A DNA stretch of 64,000 nucleotides, taken from an uncultured Pelagibacteraceae bacterium. GTDB lineage: Bacteria > Pseudomonadota > Alphaproteobacteria > Pelagibacterales > Pelagibacteraceae. The position numbers and the translations under genes were made by a program. The stretch covers positions 1 to 64,000 of the forward strand of contig CACCZY010000001.1 of the NCBI GenBank assembly GCA_902550635.1, given 5' to 3'. Positions 40,916 to 45,852 of the stretch are shown here, in pieces. The notes under the pieces are model-generated. The model searched no databases. It was not told the origin of the DNA and was given only the letters and a program-made list of their open reading frames with translations. Each line of letters begins with the position of its first letter. Position 1 is the stretch's first letter.

Positions 40916-42137
40916 AAAAAAAATCGATCTATCCTTAGATAGAACTTTTAATTTACTTAAAAAATTAGGAAACCCCCAAAATAAATTAAAAAATATAGTC
41001 ACCATTGTGGGAACGAATTCTAAGGCGAGCATGGCCTATGGTTTAAAATCTATATTAAATGAGGCAGGATATAAGTGTAATCTTTATACTTCTCCTCATT
41101 TACAATCTTATACTGAAAGATTTATTTTTAATGATAAAGAGATAAGCAATAAAAATCTTTTTGATTTGTTGTCTGATATAGAAAAATTTCTTGGAGATGA
41201 TCAAGCAACTATATTTGAGATGCTCACATGTGGATTTATTAAATATGCTGAAAATTTTCAAAATAATATAAATATAATTGAAGCTGGTCTTTTTCATCAG
41301 TTCGATAGCACCAATGTATTTAAAGAAAATCTATTAACACTAATTGGTTATATCCATTTAGATCATTTAGCATGGTTGGATAATAAAACAATTGATGGAA
41401 TTATTCATGAAAAAACCACTAAATTATTAAATTCTAATATTTTTGTTAATCAACAAGAAAATAAAGAAATTTCTTTAAAAATTGAAAATGCACTAATTAA
41501 TAATTCATCTAAAAAATATATTTTTGGGAAAGATTTTAACATTCACAGAGCAGAAAATAATTTTATTCAATATCAGGATCAATTAGGAGAAATTATTTTA
41601 CCTGAACCCAATATTTTAGGAGATCATCAATTAGGAAATTTAAGCACAGCTATAGCAGCATCCAGAAAATTATTTAACGTTAAAGATGATCATGTAAAAA
41701 AAGGTATAACTAAAATTGAACTTAAAGGAAGATTACAAGAAATAAAATCTGGAAAATTAAAAAATCTTATAGGACAAAATAGATTAATAATTGACGGCGG
41801 CCACAATATTGGTGCATCTAAAGCAATAGCCAATTGGATCAAAAATCAAAATCAAGATGTACATATAATTGTGGGCATGATGAAAGACAAAACTCACAAA
41901 GAATTTATTAATTCTTTTAAAGATATTGTTAAATCTATTCAATTAATAGATATTCCAAACCAAGAAGGCGCTCTGTCAAAAGAACAGTTTAAAAGTAAAC
42001 TAAATGGAATTAATGTAAATATTTCTTTAGCAAACAATATAGAAGAAAGTATTAAATCACTTTCAAATTACCAAAATTCAATTGGAATTTTTACAGGATC
42101 GTTATATCTAATTGGAGAGGTTTTAAATCTAAATTAG
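40872..42137 (+). CDS. folC: Folylpolyglutamate/dihydrofolate synthase, divergent
   Basis: IDLSLDRTFNLLKKLGNPQNKL, VGTNSKASMAYGL, LIDGGHNIGASKAI. Confidence 0.88.
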   Translation: MKLQNLVARLEKRHKKKIDLSLDRTFNLLKKLGNPQNKLKNIVTIVGTNSKASMAYGLKSILNEAGYKCNLYTSPHLQSYTERFIFNDKEISNKNLFDLLSDIEKFLGDDQATIFEMLTCGFIKYAENFQNNINIIEAGLFHQFDSTNVFKENLLTLIGYIHLDHLAWLDNKTIDGIIHEKTTKLLNSNIFVNQQENKEISLKIENALINNSSKKYIFGKDFNIHRAENNFIQYQDQLGEIILPEPNILGDHQLGNLSTAIAASRKLFNVKDDHVKKGITKIELKGRLQEIKSGKLKNLIGQNRLIIDGGHNIGASKAIANWIKNQNQDVHIIVGMMKDKTHKEFINSFKDIVKSIQLIDIPNQEGALSKEQFKSKLNGINVNISLANNIEESIKSLSNYQNSIGIFTGSLYLIGEVLNLN

Positions 42138-42457
42138 ATATTTTCCTTAATCCATTTTACAAAATCTTGCTTAGTAGTCATGCCTACTTTTAAAGATTTT
42201 ACTTCCTTTGAAACTATAATCGCACAAGTAGGAATTCCTCTTACAGAAAATTCAGGTCTTATTGGAACATTTGGATTTTTATCAATATCCATTACTCCAA
42301 ATTCAACTTCATTCATTTCATTTGAAATTGATTCTACAATGGGAGCTAATGCTTTACATGGACCACACCAATCAGCAGTAAATCTCAAAAGAAATGGCTT
42401 TGGGCTATTTAAAACTTTTTCTTCAAAATTATCATCTGTTACGTTTGTAATTGTCAT
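42134..42457 (-). CDS. trxA: Thioredoxin
   Basis: FTADWCGPCKALAPIVE active site; FSVRGIPT. Confidence 0.95.
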   Translation of the reverse strand: MTITNVTDDNFEEKVLNSPKPFLLRFTADWCGPCKALAPIVESISNEMNEVEFGVMDIDKNPNVPIRPEFSVRGIPTCAIIVSKEVKSLKVGMTTKQDFVKWIKENI

Positions 42458-42513: not shown

Positions 42514-43944
42514 TTAAACATTTTCATATTTTTTTTGAATTTCCATTACATAACTATTTAATTTATCTAAAAATTTTAATTTTTCATGATCATTTTCATT
42601 AGTATATTTTTCTCTCAAATTGTCGCACTCAAAGTAAAATTCTTTACAAGTCCACCATTTTTCCTTTTCATCGCTAAGTATTCTTTTAGCAATTTGCATT
42701 TTAATACTTTTCAACATTTCAGTTGGCAAAGTTTCGGGTGACTCTTGAAAAATAATTTTTTTACCAAATCCCACGAGCCTTTCATCATCAAATTTATCTA
42801 ATAGTTTTAACTTATCTTTCCAAGAAGCGGCGTGCCATGATGGAAAGAGTGCTGTATCTTTATTTGATGTAAACTTTTTGTAGATACTTTCTTCTGCATA
42901 TATATCTTCTTGTGATTTTAATTGTTCTTTTTCCTCCGCAATTTCTCTTAAAGCAGTTAGAATATTTTGAGAAAACTTTTCATTATCTCTTATTAATTGT
43001 GCTCTTTTTTTTATCAATTCAGGATCTATAACATTATATGGCTCTTCCTTCATTCCATACTTTGCCTCAAGTATAATTGGTGCTTTGTTGGATCTAATTG
43101 TTCTTAAAAACTTTGGTGTTTTCTTCATTTCTACTTTTAATTCATTAATAGACATTTTTAATAAGGGTTGAACATCAACTCTTAAATCTACCGCTTGGCC
43201 CCATTGATAAATTGGATGAATGCAATGTTTTGGGTGAAGTGGAGCACATAAATATAATCTAGATTTTCCATAAAAATATTCGTTCAAAGTTATTATATTT
43301 TCTTTTTTAAAAATTGTTTCAGTATCTAATTTGTTTGCTGTTTTTAAAAAAGCATCCCAAATACCTGCTTGTTTTTTCTTAATTAAACCAAGTATTTTCA
43401 TAGTCAATGTTGCATCAAATAGTGCTGAATGAGCGTTGCTTGAGTCGAATCCATTCATGCGGCTTAAAGACTCTAATTTAAACACAGGATTATTTTTTTC
43501 ATTAATTTCCGTCTGTAAAACATTTTTATCTATAGCATACGCAGCTCTTGCGATGTTAATTCCATCGTGTCTTTTATTAGGAGAGGCATTAGTAATATAA
43601 GGATATCTAATTCCTTTAAAAAACTCTTTTCTAATCATTTCATCGTCAAACCCAATGTTGCTCCATCCAAGAAAAATTGCTGGGCTCCATTTTTTGAATA
43701 TTTTTTCAATTTCTCCAAGCATTTGATAATGACTCAAATTAACTTGAGTTAGTTGTTTTACTGTTGTTTTGTTTACTATAAGAGCCATTGCTTGAGGTAT
43801 TTCACCTTCAGGCAATCTACATCTTAAATTAAATCTATCTAATTCTTTGAAATCTTGATTTACCAGCACGCCACCTATTTCAATTATACTTCCAAAATCA
43901 GTGCTAGCGCTTGATGACTCGATATCCCAAATAGCTAAATTCAT
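42514..43944 (-). CDS. sbcB: Exodeoxyribonuclease I-like (SbcB family)
   Basis: N-terminal DEDD exonuclease IWDIESSSASTDFGSIIEIGGVL; SNAHSALFDATLTMKI; ExoI-like length and C-terminal region. Confidence 0.85.
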   Translation of the reverse strand: MNLAIWDIESSSASTDFGSIIEIGGVLVNQDFKELDRFNLRCRLPEGEIPQAMALIVNKTTVKQLTQVNLSHYQMLGEIEKIFKKWSPAIFLGWSNIGFDDEMIRKEFFKGIRYPYITNASPNKRHDGINIARAAYAIDKNVLQTEINEKNNPVFKLESLSRMNGFDSSNAHSALFDATLTMKILGLIKKKQAGIWDAFLKTANKLDTETIFKKENIITLNEYFYGKSRLYLCAPLHPKHCIHPIYQWGQAVDLRVDVQPLLKMSINELKVEMKKTPKFLRTIRSNKAPIILEAKYGMKEEPYNVIDPELIKKRAQLIRDNEKFSQNILTALREIAEEKEQLKSQEDIYAEESIYKKFTSNKDTALFPSWHAASWKDKLKLLDKFDDERLVGFGKKIIFQESPETLPTEMLKSIKMQIAKRILSDEKEKWWTCKEFYFECDNLREKYTNENDHEKLKFLDKLNSYVMEIQKKYENV

Positions 43945-43981
43945 ATATTATTTATCCTTTTAAAAGCTATGTTTTAATGAA

Positions 43982-44024
43982 TGTTTAGATTGTTTTTTAT
44001 GACTAAACCATTTGCATCTAAACA
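43982..44024. repeat. Perfect 9-bp inverted repeat TGTTTAGAT...ATCTAAACA with an internal third CTAAAC element
   Basis: TGTTTAGAT 43982-43990, ATCTAAACA 44016-44024, internal GACTAAACCA; lies 5' of sbcB and 3' of the PD-(D/E)XK gene. Confidence 0.85.
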
Positions 44025-44072
44025 AGTAGCTCTTAGTTAGTATTATCTTTTCTAAGAATTTATTAACGAAAG

Positions 44073-44759
44073 TCAACTTAAATTATTCATTTCGTTAAAT
44101 TTTTTTACTCTTCCTAGAAATAAATTTTGGTACATTTGTAATTCTGGTCCTTCAATTTTAAAATCTTGAAATAAATTGTCTACTGTACATAATAATATTA
44201 CTCCTAAAGTAATATTTGTTTTGTAGACAATATTGTGTGCTAAAGTATACGCACCTAATTGTAGAAAATAATCTTGAATATAATCAATTTTTTTTGGTTT
44301 ATTTGCTTGTTTAAAGTCTATAATAGCTTCTTTTCCTTGATAAACTCCTACAAGATCTGCTGTACCGGCATATTTTTCTGGATAGTGAAGTGTTGTTTCC
44401 ATTCCAAATATTTCTTCTAATTTTCCTTTGATACCTTTATTTATTATTTCTTTAGCCATATTTTTATATTGCTCATTGCTTTCAAAAAAACTCTCATTAA
44501 TCCTGCCTCTTAAAAAATCCTCTATATAAGAATGCATTGAAGTACCTCTGCTGGATGCCTCAGTTTTAATTTTATTAGCTTCTTTGTGGCCTACTCGCTG
44601 TTTCCAATTTTCTAATGCTGCTTTATCCTCCTCTGATTTGGTTGCTTGTAAAATAGAGGTAACACTTGGTAATTTTTCATCATTAAATAAATATTTTCTC
44701 ATACCATTTTCAATGGATCTTGATGATTTTGGATAATTAAATTTATTATTCCACTTCAT
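44073..44759 (-). CDS. PD-(D/E)XK nuclease resembling MGME1/phage-type exonuclease
   Basis: LPSVTSILQAT...LENWKQRVG, SSRGTSMHSYIEDFL, GTADLVGVYQGKEAIIDFKQANKPKKIDYIQDYFLQLGAYTLAHN. Start at MKWNNKF; the track start (44828) overlaps rmuC. Confidence 0.8.
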   Translation of the reverse strand: MKWNNKFNYPKSSRSIENGMRKYLFNDEKLPSVTSILQATKSEEDKAALENWKQRVGHKEANKIKTEASSRGTSMHSYIEDFLRGRINESFFESNEQYKNMAKEIINKGIKGKLEEIFGMETTLHYPEKYAGTADLVGVYQGKEAIIDFKQANKPKKIDYIQDYFLQLGAYTLAHNIVYKTNITLGVILLCTVDNLFQDFKIEGPELQMYQNLFLGRVKKFNEMNNLS

Positions 44760-44796
44760 TGTGTCACTTATAAATGTATTTAATTTGAAAATGAAA

Positions 44797-45852
44797 TTAA
44801 TTTTTAAGTTGTTTTGAGTGGTCGACAAATTTTTCTACGTTTTCAGTTTTAACAGCTTTTTCAACTTGCTCGGGATCTTTTATATTTTCTAAAGTTCTAG
44901 TGATTGATCTTGCATCTGTGCCAAATGTATCTACAACTTTCATTGCTTCTTCTAATTTTTTTCGAAGTACAATTACATTATCAAAATGCTTTGCAAACCT
45001 TGTACTAATTGTTTTTAAATGATTGTAAATTTCTGTTGCACCCTTTTGTACCTTTAATGATTGAAAGCCCATATGTAATGATTGCAGATAAGCTGAAAGA
45101 GTATTTGGACCCATAATTACAATTTTATACTTTTTCATTAATTCTTGAGTTAATAATTCTTTAGTACTAGGATCTTGGTAGTCAGTTAATTCTTTATATA
45201 AACTCTCAGTTGGCGCATATACTATTCCAAAATCTGTGGTTTTAGGTGGAACAATATATTTTTCATTTACACTTTTAGCTTTATCTTTAAAAGCTTTAGC
45301 TAATTTTGTTCTAGCATCTGCCATTGCTTTTTTATCATCTTCTTGGTGAGCATCATCTATTGCTTTAAATCTTTCTACTGGAAAATGACTATCTACTGGA
45401 ACTAAAACATCTCCTTGAAGTTTTATAGCAAATTCTACATTTTCTGAGGTATCTTCTTTCATCTTAACATTTGATATAAATTGAGAAGCTGGCAATAAAT
45501 CTTTTAATAAAGATGCCAAGCTAAACTCAGCCAAGGTTCCATATTTTTTAACTCCAGCTAAAATCTTAGTAATCCCCTCCTGGCTTTTATTTAAATTTTC
45601 AACTTGTGTATTAAAAGCAGAAACTTTTTCATTAACTGAAGTTAAAGTTTGTGTCATGTCTCTTGTCACATCTTTTGATAGACTATTAAAAGAAGTAGAC
45701 ATACTATTAAATGAATTGTTGATACTTTCTTTTAAATTATTAAGTTCTTGAGTGTTGTCTTTTGGCTCTTCTTTATTTTTACGCTGAGTAACCAAAAGGT
45801 AAATAACAATCCCTATTAGGACTAAAATTATATATAGTAACGAATCTTGCAT
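44797..45852 (-). CDS. rmuC: RmuC-domain protein (putative recombination-limiting nuclease)
   Basis: N-terminal TM + coiled coil; YGTLAEFSLASLLKDLLP, VPVDSHFPVERFKAI, KTTDFGIVYAPTESLY. Confidence 0.92.
   Translation of the reverse strand: MQDSLLYIILVLIGIVIYLLVTQRKNKEEPKDNTQELNNLKESINNSFNSMSTSFNSLSKDVTRDMTQTLTSVNEKVSAFNTQVENLNKSQEGITKILAGVKKYGTLAEFSLASLLKDLLPASQFISNVKMKEDTSENVEFAIKLQGDVLVPVDSHFPVERFKAIDDAHQEDDKKAMADARTKLAKAFKDKAKSVNEKYIVPPKTTDFGIVYAPTESLYKELTDYQDPSTKELLTQELMKKYKIVIMGPNTLSAYLQSLHMGFQSLKVQKGATEIYNHLKTISTRFAKHFDNVIVLRKKLEEAMKVVDTFGTDARSITRTLENIKDPEQVEKAVKTENVEKFVDHSKQLKN

Follow-up and report, generated by a model that had tools for sequence, protein, structure and literature searches.

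The window, by which we mean the whole 64,000-nucleotide stretch of SAR11 DNA analyzed here, carries a phage-type nuclease gene of the MGME1 kind between the genes of an ExoI (SbcB)-like protein and an RmuC-family protein. The reading that we favor, with some reserve, is that this phage-captured exonuclease and ExoI would trim single-stranded DNA (ssDNA) ends instead of RecJ and ExoVII. That the three genes are consecutive on the minus strand, as stated in the original prediction, is confirmed by their coordinates and family matches (Table 1). The gaps within the trio are 37 nt between rmuC and the middle gene and 128 nt between the middle gene and the ExoI-like gene. The flanking genes also lie on the minus strand: hisG precedes rmuC by 23 nt, and a thioredoxin gene follows the ExoI-like gene after 56 nt. 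For the middle gene, an alternative longer TTG start would give a protein of 251 aa.

Table 1. Positions of the trio, its downstream neighbor, and the residues discussed in the text (window coordinates).
Feature	Position	Strand	Description
rmuC	44797-45852	minus	RmuC-family, 351 aa; hydrophobic N-terminal segment and coiled coil; PF02646 E 9.9e-47
RmuC DxK site, Asp-Ser-His (GAT AGT CAT)	45385-45393	minus	VDSHFP in the window RmuC versus (V/I)D(S/A)KFP in RmuC nucleases
MGME1-type PD-(D/E)XK ssDNA exonuclease gene (predicted)	44073-44759	minus	228 aa, ATG at 44757-44759
His76 codon (MGME1 His180)	44532-44534	minus	Motif Ia metal ligand; unchanged across 39 sequences from SAR11 and viruses
Asp135 codon (MGME1 Asp238)	44355-44357	minus	Motif II; invariant in 39 sequences
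Asp148 codon (MGME1 Asp251)	44316-44318	minus	Motif III DxK; invariant in 39 sequences
Lys150 codon (MGME1 Lys253)	44310-44312	minus	Motif III DxK; invariant in 39 sequences
QLGAY (RecB-type motif IV QhXXY)	44247-44261	minus	Gln167/Tyr171 equal MGME1 Gln271/Tyr275; invariant
ExoI (SbcB)-like 3'-5' ssDNA exonuclease gene (predicted)	42514-43944	minus	476 aa
Thioredoxin gene (WCGPCK)	42134-42457	minus	PF00085 E 8.7e-24

The middle protein is of the MGME1 type

By sequence and predicted structure, the middle protein is an MGME1-like nuclease, for which an ssDNA exonuclease activity is predicted. Over its full length it matches the PHROG 298 exonuclease (E 1.5e-46), and human MGME1 is recovered both with a single sequence in phmmer (E 3e-11) and with a profile of the protein against the PDB (E 2e-17), where no second nuclease appears up to E 10. 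Its AlphaFold model (pLDDT 93) finds as best PDB match the MGME1 structure 5zyv (E 8.9e-13, TM 0.75); MGME1 accounts for the top nine matches, and the next, non-MGME1 chain stands at E 6.9e-6 with a TM below 0.5. Cas4, RecE, AddAB, and lambda exonuclease are thus all more distant in fold than MGME1 when the predicted structure is compared with the PDB. Membership in the Cas4 or AddA/RecB families was rejected, their model matches being partial and below threshold: Pfam PDDEXK_1 gives 18.6 bits against a cut-off of 22 and covers only 46 residues, and PADLOC Cas4_II gives a partial match at E 1e-3. The middle frame does not group with other PD-(D/E)XK families, an outcome that would have refuted the original prediction, and the MGME1 layout and catalytic residues first recognized in the sequence are borne out by sequence, profile, and fold matches alike.

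Human MGME1 is the closest solved structure to the SAR11 protein by both sequence and fold. MGME1 Thr134, Trp152, His180, Asp238, Asp251, Lys253, Gln271, and Tyr275 can all be aligned and do not vary among the 39 sequences compared from SAR11 and viruses, so that the DNA-contact threonine, the metal and catalytic residues, and the QhXXY motif are kept (residue roles and motif definition from PMC6237815); the catalytic residues are unchanged across about 50% divergence. However, the two proteins share only about 25% identity, the SAR11 protein has no targeting sequence, and of the aromatic pin of MGME1 only Trp152 is retained, Phe173 being replaced by Ser, Ala, or Gly in 39 of 39 sequences. The resemblance to the human enzyme cannot by itself show shared descent through the mitochondrial ancestor.

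Distribution and probable phage origin

The MGME1-type gene is present in 74 of 90 genomes of the SAR11 genus and in none of three complete sister-genus genomes. The rest of the Alphaproteobacteria sample gave only four matches, three weak and one within phage-like contigs, and the phylum sample gave AddA-like matches only. A match in the sister family (G135) lies on a contig of 3.4 kb whose genes are ordered as in the MGME1-bearing genus, and phage-type contigs carrying the gene are found under G417 and, by tree position beside G417, under G057 (L292, L293, and L036).

In viruses, the PHROG 298-type gene occurs in 988 phage records and, by an alignment-based scan, in hundreds of viral stretches; a scan with a single middle-protein sequence as query returned none of the latter. 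Named carriers include the pelagiphages HTVC027P and HTVC023P, phage 023Pt_psg01, jumbo phages, T4-like cyanophages, and Ackermannviridae, and in phage neighborhoods the gene lies near a PolA-type polymerase, gp33/gp59, or uvsY/uvsW genes. In the phylogeny that the original prediction had proposed, SAR11 copies adjoin a marine phage clade with a support of 91/78 in a tree that is unrooted and does not prove the direction of transfer, whereas human MGME1 sits on a branch of 3.8, too long for placement. By similarity ranks, human MGME1 is equally close to SAR11 and marine phage copies. Since the gene is near-universal in the genus, absent from sister genera and sampled Alphaproteobacteria, and present in about 1000 phages, the ancestor of the SAR11 genus would most likely have gained it from a phage. 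The PHROG 298 exonucleases are homologous to the SAR11 protein over the full length (at most 53% identity to viral contigs), with the same residues and the same size, but the SAR11 copy is chromosomal, fixed in the genus, and linked to ExoI and RmuC, with phage genes absent nearby.

We rejected the idea that the window copy came from a prophage or a mis-binned contig, because the same his and trx-folC-accD neighborhood surrounds most of the 80 named loci.

The ExoI-like and RmuC proteins

The ExoI-like protein possesses the exonuclease and Exonuc_X-T_C domains (ExoI C-terminal PF08411, E 1.7e-16, 60.6 bits against a cut-off of 27) and matches the structure of Escherichia coli ExoI, 1fxx, at E 2.7e-18; in the alignment with 1fxx, the DEDDh residues are found in the N-terminal DxE, FDDE, and SNAH...D. 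Despite this full-length family match to E. coli ExoI (SbcB) with its catalytic residues, the protein scores 148 of the 260 bits required by the NCBI ExoI equivalog, hence the name ExoI-like, and its nearest library model is PADLOC RTasSbcB (E 1.5e-66), which fits better than housekeeping ExoI models.

The window RmuC, with 159.9 bits against a cut-off of 26 for PF02646, resembles RmuC (COG1322) and Shield ShdA in this domain, its hydrophobic N terminus, and its coiled coil. However, the DxK site reads DSH in most RmuCs of the genus, against IDAK in relatives from Rhizobium, Bacteroidales, Sphingomonas, and Clostridia and DSK in the sister-genus type. Among 118 SAR11 RmuCs, the position of the catalytic lysine is occupied by His in 82, Lys in 35, and Tyr in one. 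The three nucleases originally named may thus be two, because most RmuCs, that of the window included, carry His for the catalytic Lys and are probably not nucleases themselves. Alternatively, the lysine may have been relocated, as described for some PD-(D/E)XK enzymes (PMC1189080). PADLOC reports RTasRmuC for the window RmuC, matching in the coiled coil only, and no Shield model; some other RmuC variants match RTasRmuC.

Conservation of the linkage

In 79 of the 80 named SAR11 loci, exoI is found no more than 1.5 kb from the MGME1-type gene and on its strand, the 80th locus being at a contig end; rmuC is so placed in 76. These counts put the adjacency of the trio beyond chance. The slot beside the MGME1-type gene has been refilled by several distant RmuC types from different clades or by DUF2130, and gene order has been altered, yet the genes remain together; in G012 the trio is intact though not beside hisG. 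On the other hand, synteny is also strong with the unrelated his, trx, folC, and accD genes, and the adjacency would be partly an inherited position. The thioredoxin gene is the constant downstream neighbor of the ExoI/RmuC pair, likewise in sister genera, the sister family, and G417, and the placement of exoI next to trx-folC-accD extends to the sister family and to another alphaproteobacterial order. The ExoI-RmuC pair is older than the MGME1-type gene, which joined later. With synteny conserved across the SAR11 loci, regarding the group as a module, as proposed at the outset, is reasonable, and the three products may be partners.

Some relatives have further genes between hisG and rmuC, namely a C5 methylase together with a type II restriction enzyme, or else AAA_15/AAA_21 ATPases; only this edge of the trio resembles a hotspot for defense-type inserts.

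Loss of the usual repair nucleases

RecJ is present in 46 of 53 sister-family genomes and in all three sister-genus genomes, but in only 14 of 90 genomes of the MGME1-bearing genus, and two of these 14 genes are apparently broken. Near-complete genomes of the genus also have no RecF (0 of 7, compared with 9 of 9 other genomes), and AddA was found in none of 13 SAR11 genomes. In one complete genome (G082), E. coli queries, run with controls, gave no match to RecJ, XseA (ExoVII), SbcD, or MutS and no SbcC match passing as an orthologue; among the dedicated ssDNA exonucleases sought there, only ExoI and the MGME1-type protein were present.

The MGME1-type gene occurs in five of five genomes of the genus that are at least 95% complete and have no RecJ. 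Conversely, RecJ is found in six of six tested SAR11 genomes without the MGME1-type gene, and both coexist in early-branching members (G012, G395, G059, and others). Since RecJ seems to have been lost mainly once, this correlation counts few independent cases. The folds of RecJ, a DHH enzyme, and of ExoVII, from another family, are unrelated to that of the MGME1-type protein, and the likeness would lie solely in the proposed job, that of an ssDNA exonuclease in repair.

Proposed role and alternative explanations

SAR11 recombines promiscuously without RecBCD, RecF, and MutSL, in a report that does not state the enzyme for DNA-end processing (PMC12374537). We propose that the ancestor of the genus captured the phage gene and fixed it beside the older ExoI-RmuC pair. 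The MGME1-type enzyme would cut single-stranded ends and flaps, including 5' ends, like human MGME1, and ExoI would handle 3' ends alongside it. Together they would replace ssDNA exonucleases that are lost or eroding, RecJ in most of the genus and ExoVII in the genome tested, with ssDNA tails being prepared or removed during RecOR/RecA repair and recombination, and RmuC would act as a membrane-tethered coiled-coil partner. More tentatively, and as a possibility that we hold to be less than even, the phage-type MGME1 may have taken the place of RecJ (and ExoVII) specifically in digesting ssDNA from 5' ends and, together with ExoI and an RmuC that no longer cuts, may form a minimal end-processing system free of RecBCD, RecF, and MutSL, paralleling the mitochondrial use of MGME1.

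The anti-phage or plasmid clearance originally suggested, in which the trio would destroy incoming ssDNA or intermediates of replication in the manner of RmuC-based Shield or of the ExoI/RmuC genes that PADLOC classes as reverse transcriptase-associated, is unlikely. It could draw on the RTasSbcB and RTasRmuC matches, on RmuC being a defense effector in Shield (PMC10270631), on the restriction-modification and ATPase genes in the hisG-rmuC gap, and on RmuC variants that turn over as defense genes do. However, the trio is found in nearly all genomes of the genus instead of being scattered, stands beside housekeeping genes in a position that exoI shares with another order, and is accompanied by neither a reverse transcriptase nor a sensor gene in the part of the window examined around it; moreover, the RTasRmuC fit of the window protein is limited to the coiled coil, the usual RmuC of the genus is without the catalytic lysine, and the defense-type inserts are at the edge only. 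A literature search of partial coverage found nothing on RmuC/SbcB with reverse transcriptases. Quite unlikely is a mitochondria-like processing of replication ends, with displaced 5' flaps trimmed in chromosome replication and not in repair or recombination. Human MGME1 does act on 7S DNA ends as well as on flaps of DNA and of RNA-DNA (PMC4222359), and the phage copies neighbor replication genes, but PolA is present and retains its 5'-nuclease residues, and Okazaki flaps therefore need no MGME1-type enzyme; the strand-separating pin residue Phe173 is not retained, and sister genera survive without the gene.

We also consider it very unlikely that there is no module at all, that is, that the operon-like arrangement of three unrelated DNA genes reflects the way in which small genomes preserve gene order, and that the phage-type gene is merely tolerated. 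The synteny with unrelated neighbors and the single acquisition of the MGME1-type gene would agree with this, whereas the persistence of the trio when its surroundings change (G012), RmuC is exchanged, or order is altered, together with the invariant catalytic residues, speaks against it, and useless genes are shed by streamlined genomes. Finally, the alphaproteobacterial home of the gene had been taken as a hint of mitochondrial ancestry. If the gene were ancient in Alphaproteobacteria and had reached eukaryotes through the mitochondrion, this would account for the true sequence and fold homology with MGME1 in SAR11, a member of the Alphaproteobacteria, but such vertical descent is extremely improbable and was rejected on distribution in the genus, class, and phylum samples: within the class the gene is confined to this genus, missing even from the sister genera and sister family, its relatives are phage genes, and the human sequence is no closer to SAR11 than to phage copies, on a branch that cannot be placed.

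Biological meaning

In our preferred reading, of end trimming by the MGME1-type enzyme and ExoI, the trio is a concrete candidate for DNA-end processing in SAR11, abundant ocean bacteria represented here by a dominant, free-living genus. A literature search of partial coverage found no report of MGME1 in this group. The likely dead RmuC would be useful for asking about the non-cutting role of RmuC, and the SAR11 proteins supply bacterial relatives for MGME1, a human disease gene. Phage-like replication enzymes of mitochondria are documented (PMC6963530); if the proposal is true, SAR11 would offer a testable natural parallel to mitochondria, two reduced systems with the same nuclease type.

Results

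Organization of the locus

The locus formed by rmuC, the gene of a 228-residue PD-(D/E)XK protein (MGME1-type) and an ExoI-like gene is real and conserved. In the window, whose genome assembly (918 kb, 59 contigs, completeness estimate of 68%) has SAR11 (Pelagibacteraceae) single-cell genomes and MAGs as closest named relatives, the minus strand carries hisS-hisZ-hisG, then this trio in that order and a thioredoxin gene, being followed on the opposite strand by folC and accD. The intergenic gaps from hisG through thioredoxin are 23, 37, 128, and 56 nt, a spacing that would make a single transcript possible.

Genes of the trio locus in the window
Gene	Position	Strand
rmuC	44797-45852	minus
PD-(D/E)XK gene, 228 aa (MGME1-type)	44073-44759	minus
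ExoI-like gene	42514-43944	minus
thioredoxin gene	42134-42457	minus

Identity of the middle protein

No NCBIfam model matched the 228-residue protein and its Pfam PDDEXK_1 score is below the cut-off of that model, whereas PHROG 298, a phage exonuclease family, covers 226 residues (E 1.5e-46). In the PDB, human MGME1 is the sole nuclease matched by the single sequence (E 3e-11); a profile of 14 SAR11 copies retrieves it at E 2e-17 and matches no further nuclease at E values as high as 10. Moreover, the AlphaFold model (pLDDT 93, pTM 0.89) matches the MGME1 structure at E 8.9e-13 with a TM of 0.75, the first non-MGME1 matches being DinG, Cas4, and RecE chains from E 6.9e-6 and with TM below 0.5. 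According to the residue roles described for the MGME1 structure (PMC6237815), the DNA contact Thr134, the pin residue Trp152, and the metal ligand His180 correspond to T34, W52, and H76, and the metal ligands Asp238 and Asp251, the catalytic Lys253, and motif IV Gln271/Tyr275 to D135, D148, K150, Q167, and Y171, all without variation across 39 SAR11 and viral sequences. Unlike MGME1, these 39 proteins lack the second pin residue, Phe173. The MGME1 resemblance claimed in the original prediction is right and specific.

Distribution of the MGME1-type gene

Of the 90 genomes of the window's genus, many of which are incomplete, 74 carry the gene. Practically none of the 53 sister-family genomes does: the single match there, in G135, lies on a short contig whose genes are arranged as in the window's genus. 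It is also absent from three complete genomes representing two sister genera. Among 387 sampled genomes of the class, the only other strong match is G417, from another order, with its copies in two phage-like contigs; a phylum sample partly overlapping the former gave further matches that were AddA-like only. By contrast, 988 phage records and at least 464 viral stretches contain the gene, SAR11 phages among them. The two G417 loci (L292 and L293) have an identical gene string and, with L036 from G057, are closely related jumbo-phage-like genes in two bacterial assemblies, probably phage contigs binned with bacteria. Separately, in the draft genomes G036 (L038, C12, 3789-4474) and G064 (C1:11629-12309), the gene is split between two reading frames or was flagged as carrying an in-frame stop, which could reflect pseudogenes or assembly errors.

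By parsimony, a gain from phage at the base of the genus is favored. In an unrooted tree, the chromosomal SAR11 copies group together, adjoining a marine phage clade. We infer the direction of transfer, phage to SAR11, rather than read it from the tree, because the root was not inferred and support for the exact border between both groups is 91/78.

Neighborhood across relatives

RmuC adjoins ExoI across SAR11, and an ExoI adjoining thioredoxin-folC-accD is likewise seen outside the genus: in the sister genera, in G417, and in the sister family, there with RmuC in between. Neither the exoI-rmuC order of the sister family nor the rmuC-exoI order of the sister genera includes the MGME1-type gene, which thus came as a newcomer to an older ExoI-RmuC pair. 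In the window and in L081-L087, L289-L291, and L294, a thioredoxin gene follows the pair, across the order and even in G417, with a highly variable sequence (28-57% identity to the window copy inside the genus).

A same-strand exoI is located within 1.5 kb in 79 of the 80 named loci of the genus, the 80th being at a contig end, and RmuC is present in 76, with two others at contig ends and two carrying DUF2130 instead. In these last (L136, 3875-4981; L137, 3705-4985), DUF2130 (PF09903) takes precisely the place of RmuC, upstream of the MGME1-type gene, and may be a functional stand-in. The RmuC slot itself is unstable: RmuCs of the DSH clade (window type) lie upstream, those of a clade shared with the sister genera separate the MGME1-type gene from exoI, and those of a third clade are encoded on the opposite strand or a short distance away. 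In the complete genome G012, the trio stays together in a changed order, with hisG not adjoining. Part of the linkage is inherited position; that the genes are kept together despite partner exchange and reordering nonetheless argues for a shared job.

L089, L090, and L091 (G022, G067, and G040) and L034/L035 (G069 and G061) have an additional, divergent ExoI accompanied by a different type of RmuC, not near hisG and lacking the MGME1-type gene. They also encode small uncharacterized proteins and, upstream, a protein resembling a repressor (Peptidase_S24 in L034). L089-L091 additionally encode a 530-residue uncharacterized protein, with a 562-residue relative in L088. This set looks like an accessory ExoI-RmuC cassette.

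Loss of end-processing genes

SAR11 bacteria are reported to lack RecBCD, RecF, and MutSL (PMC12374537). Here, none of the 7 near-complete genomes tested from the genus has RecF, which all 9 other tested genomes have, and AddA is absent in 13/13 SAR11 genomes tested. RecJ, found in 46/53 sister-family and 3/3 sister-genus genomes, remains in 14/90 genomes of the genus, in its more divergent members, and in none of the about 50 whose MGME1-type protein is at least 66% identical to that of the window. Two of these copies (G024:C18:7797-9399 and G071:C3:14092-15669) are in two frames or have an internal stop, corresponding to apparent recent recJ decay or assembly errors.

In the complete genome G082, E. 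coli RecA, PolA, RecO, and RNase III queries match their counterparts and the PolA 5'-nuclease residues are intact, but RecJ, XseA, SbcD, and MutS queries match nothing and SbcC gives weak short stretches only; in a control, the same XseA and SbcD queries recover alphaproteobacterial genes on plasmids. By these searches, the two ssDNA exonucleases of the trio locus are the only dedicated ones in G082 among those looked for.

Discussion

The DxK lysine belongs to the RmuC nuclease motif (PMC1189080), and loss of the corresponding lysine abolishes MGME1 activity (PMC4222359). The site is DxH in 82 of 118 SAR11 RmuCs and DxY in one, these forming one supported clade, while same-subfamily RmuCs of Rhizobium, Bacteroidales, Sphingomonas, and Clostridia show IDAK. 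Because the motif lysine is missing, most RmuCs of the genus, including that of the window, probably lack nuclease activity, barring its replacement by a different lysine.

MGME1 digests ssDNA from either end and also cleaves flaps (PMC4222359). ExoI would handle 3' ends and the MGME1-type enzyme would be able to attack 5' ends, so that the pair could supply resection and tail removal for a RecOR/RecA pathway and RecJ and ExoVII could be dispensed with. RmuC may anchor this activity at the membrane or at specific DNA structures. The identity of the proteins, their linkage, and gene loss point to such end processing as the most likely function, although the losses amount to few independent events. 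The chief alternative is a role of the trio in defense, since the best library match of ExoI is RT-associated SbcB and, in some relatives, the hisG-rmuC gap takes up methylase-restriction pairs and AAA ATPases. Nonetheless, the near-universal presence of the trio in the genus speaks for housekeeping. The defense-type inserts of the hisG-to-trio gap (L096, 2268-4372; L097; L103, 801-3777; L165, 636-3803) are of two kinds: in one, a C5 cytosine methylase is paired with a type II restriction enzyme; in the other, AAA_15/AAA_21 ATPases (NsnB/GajA-like) accompany an uncharacterized protein of 350-380 residues.

Finally, human MGME1 has no placement on the tree and is as similar to the SAR11 copies as to the marine phage ones. 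The suggested hint of mitochondrial ancestry is not supported. The more interesting point is the probable capture of a phage-type nuclease by a genus that lost the standard end-processing enzymes.
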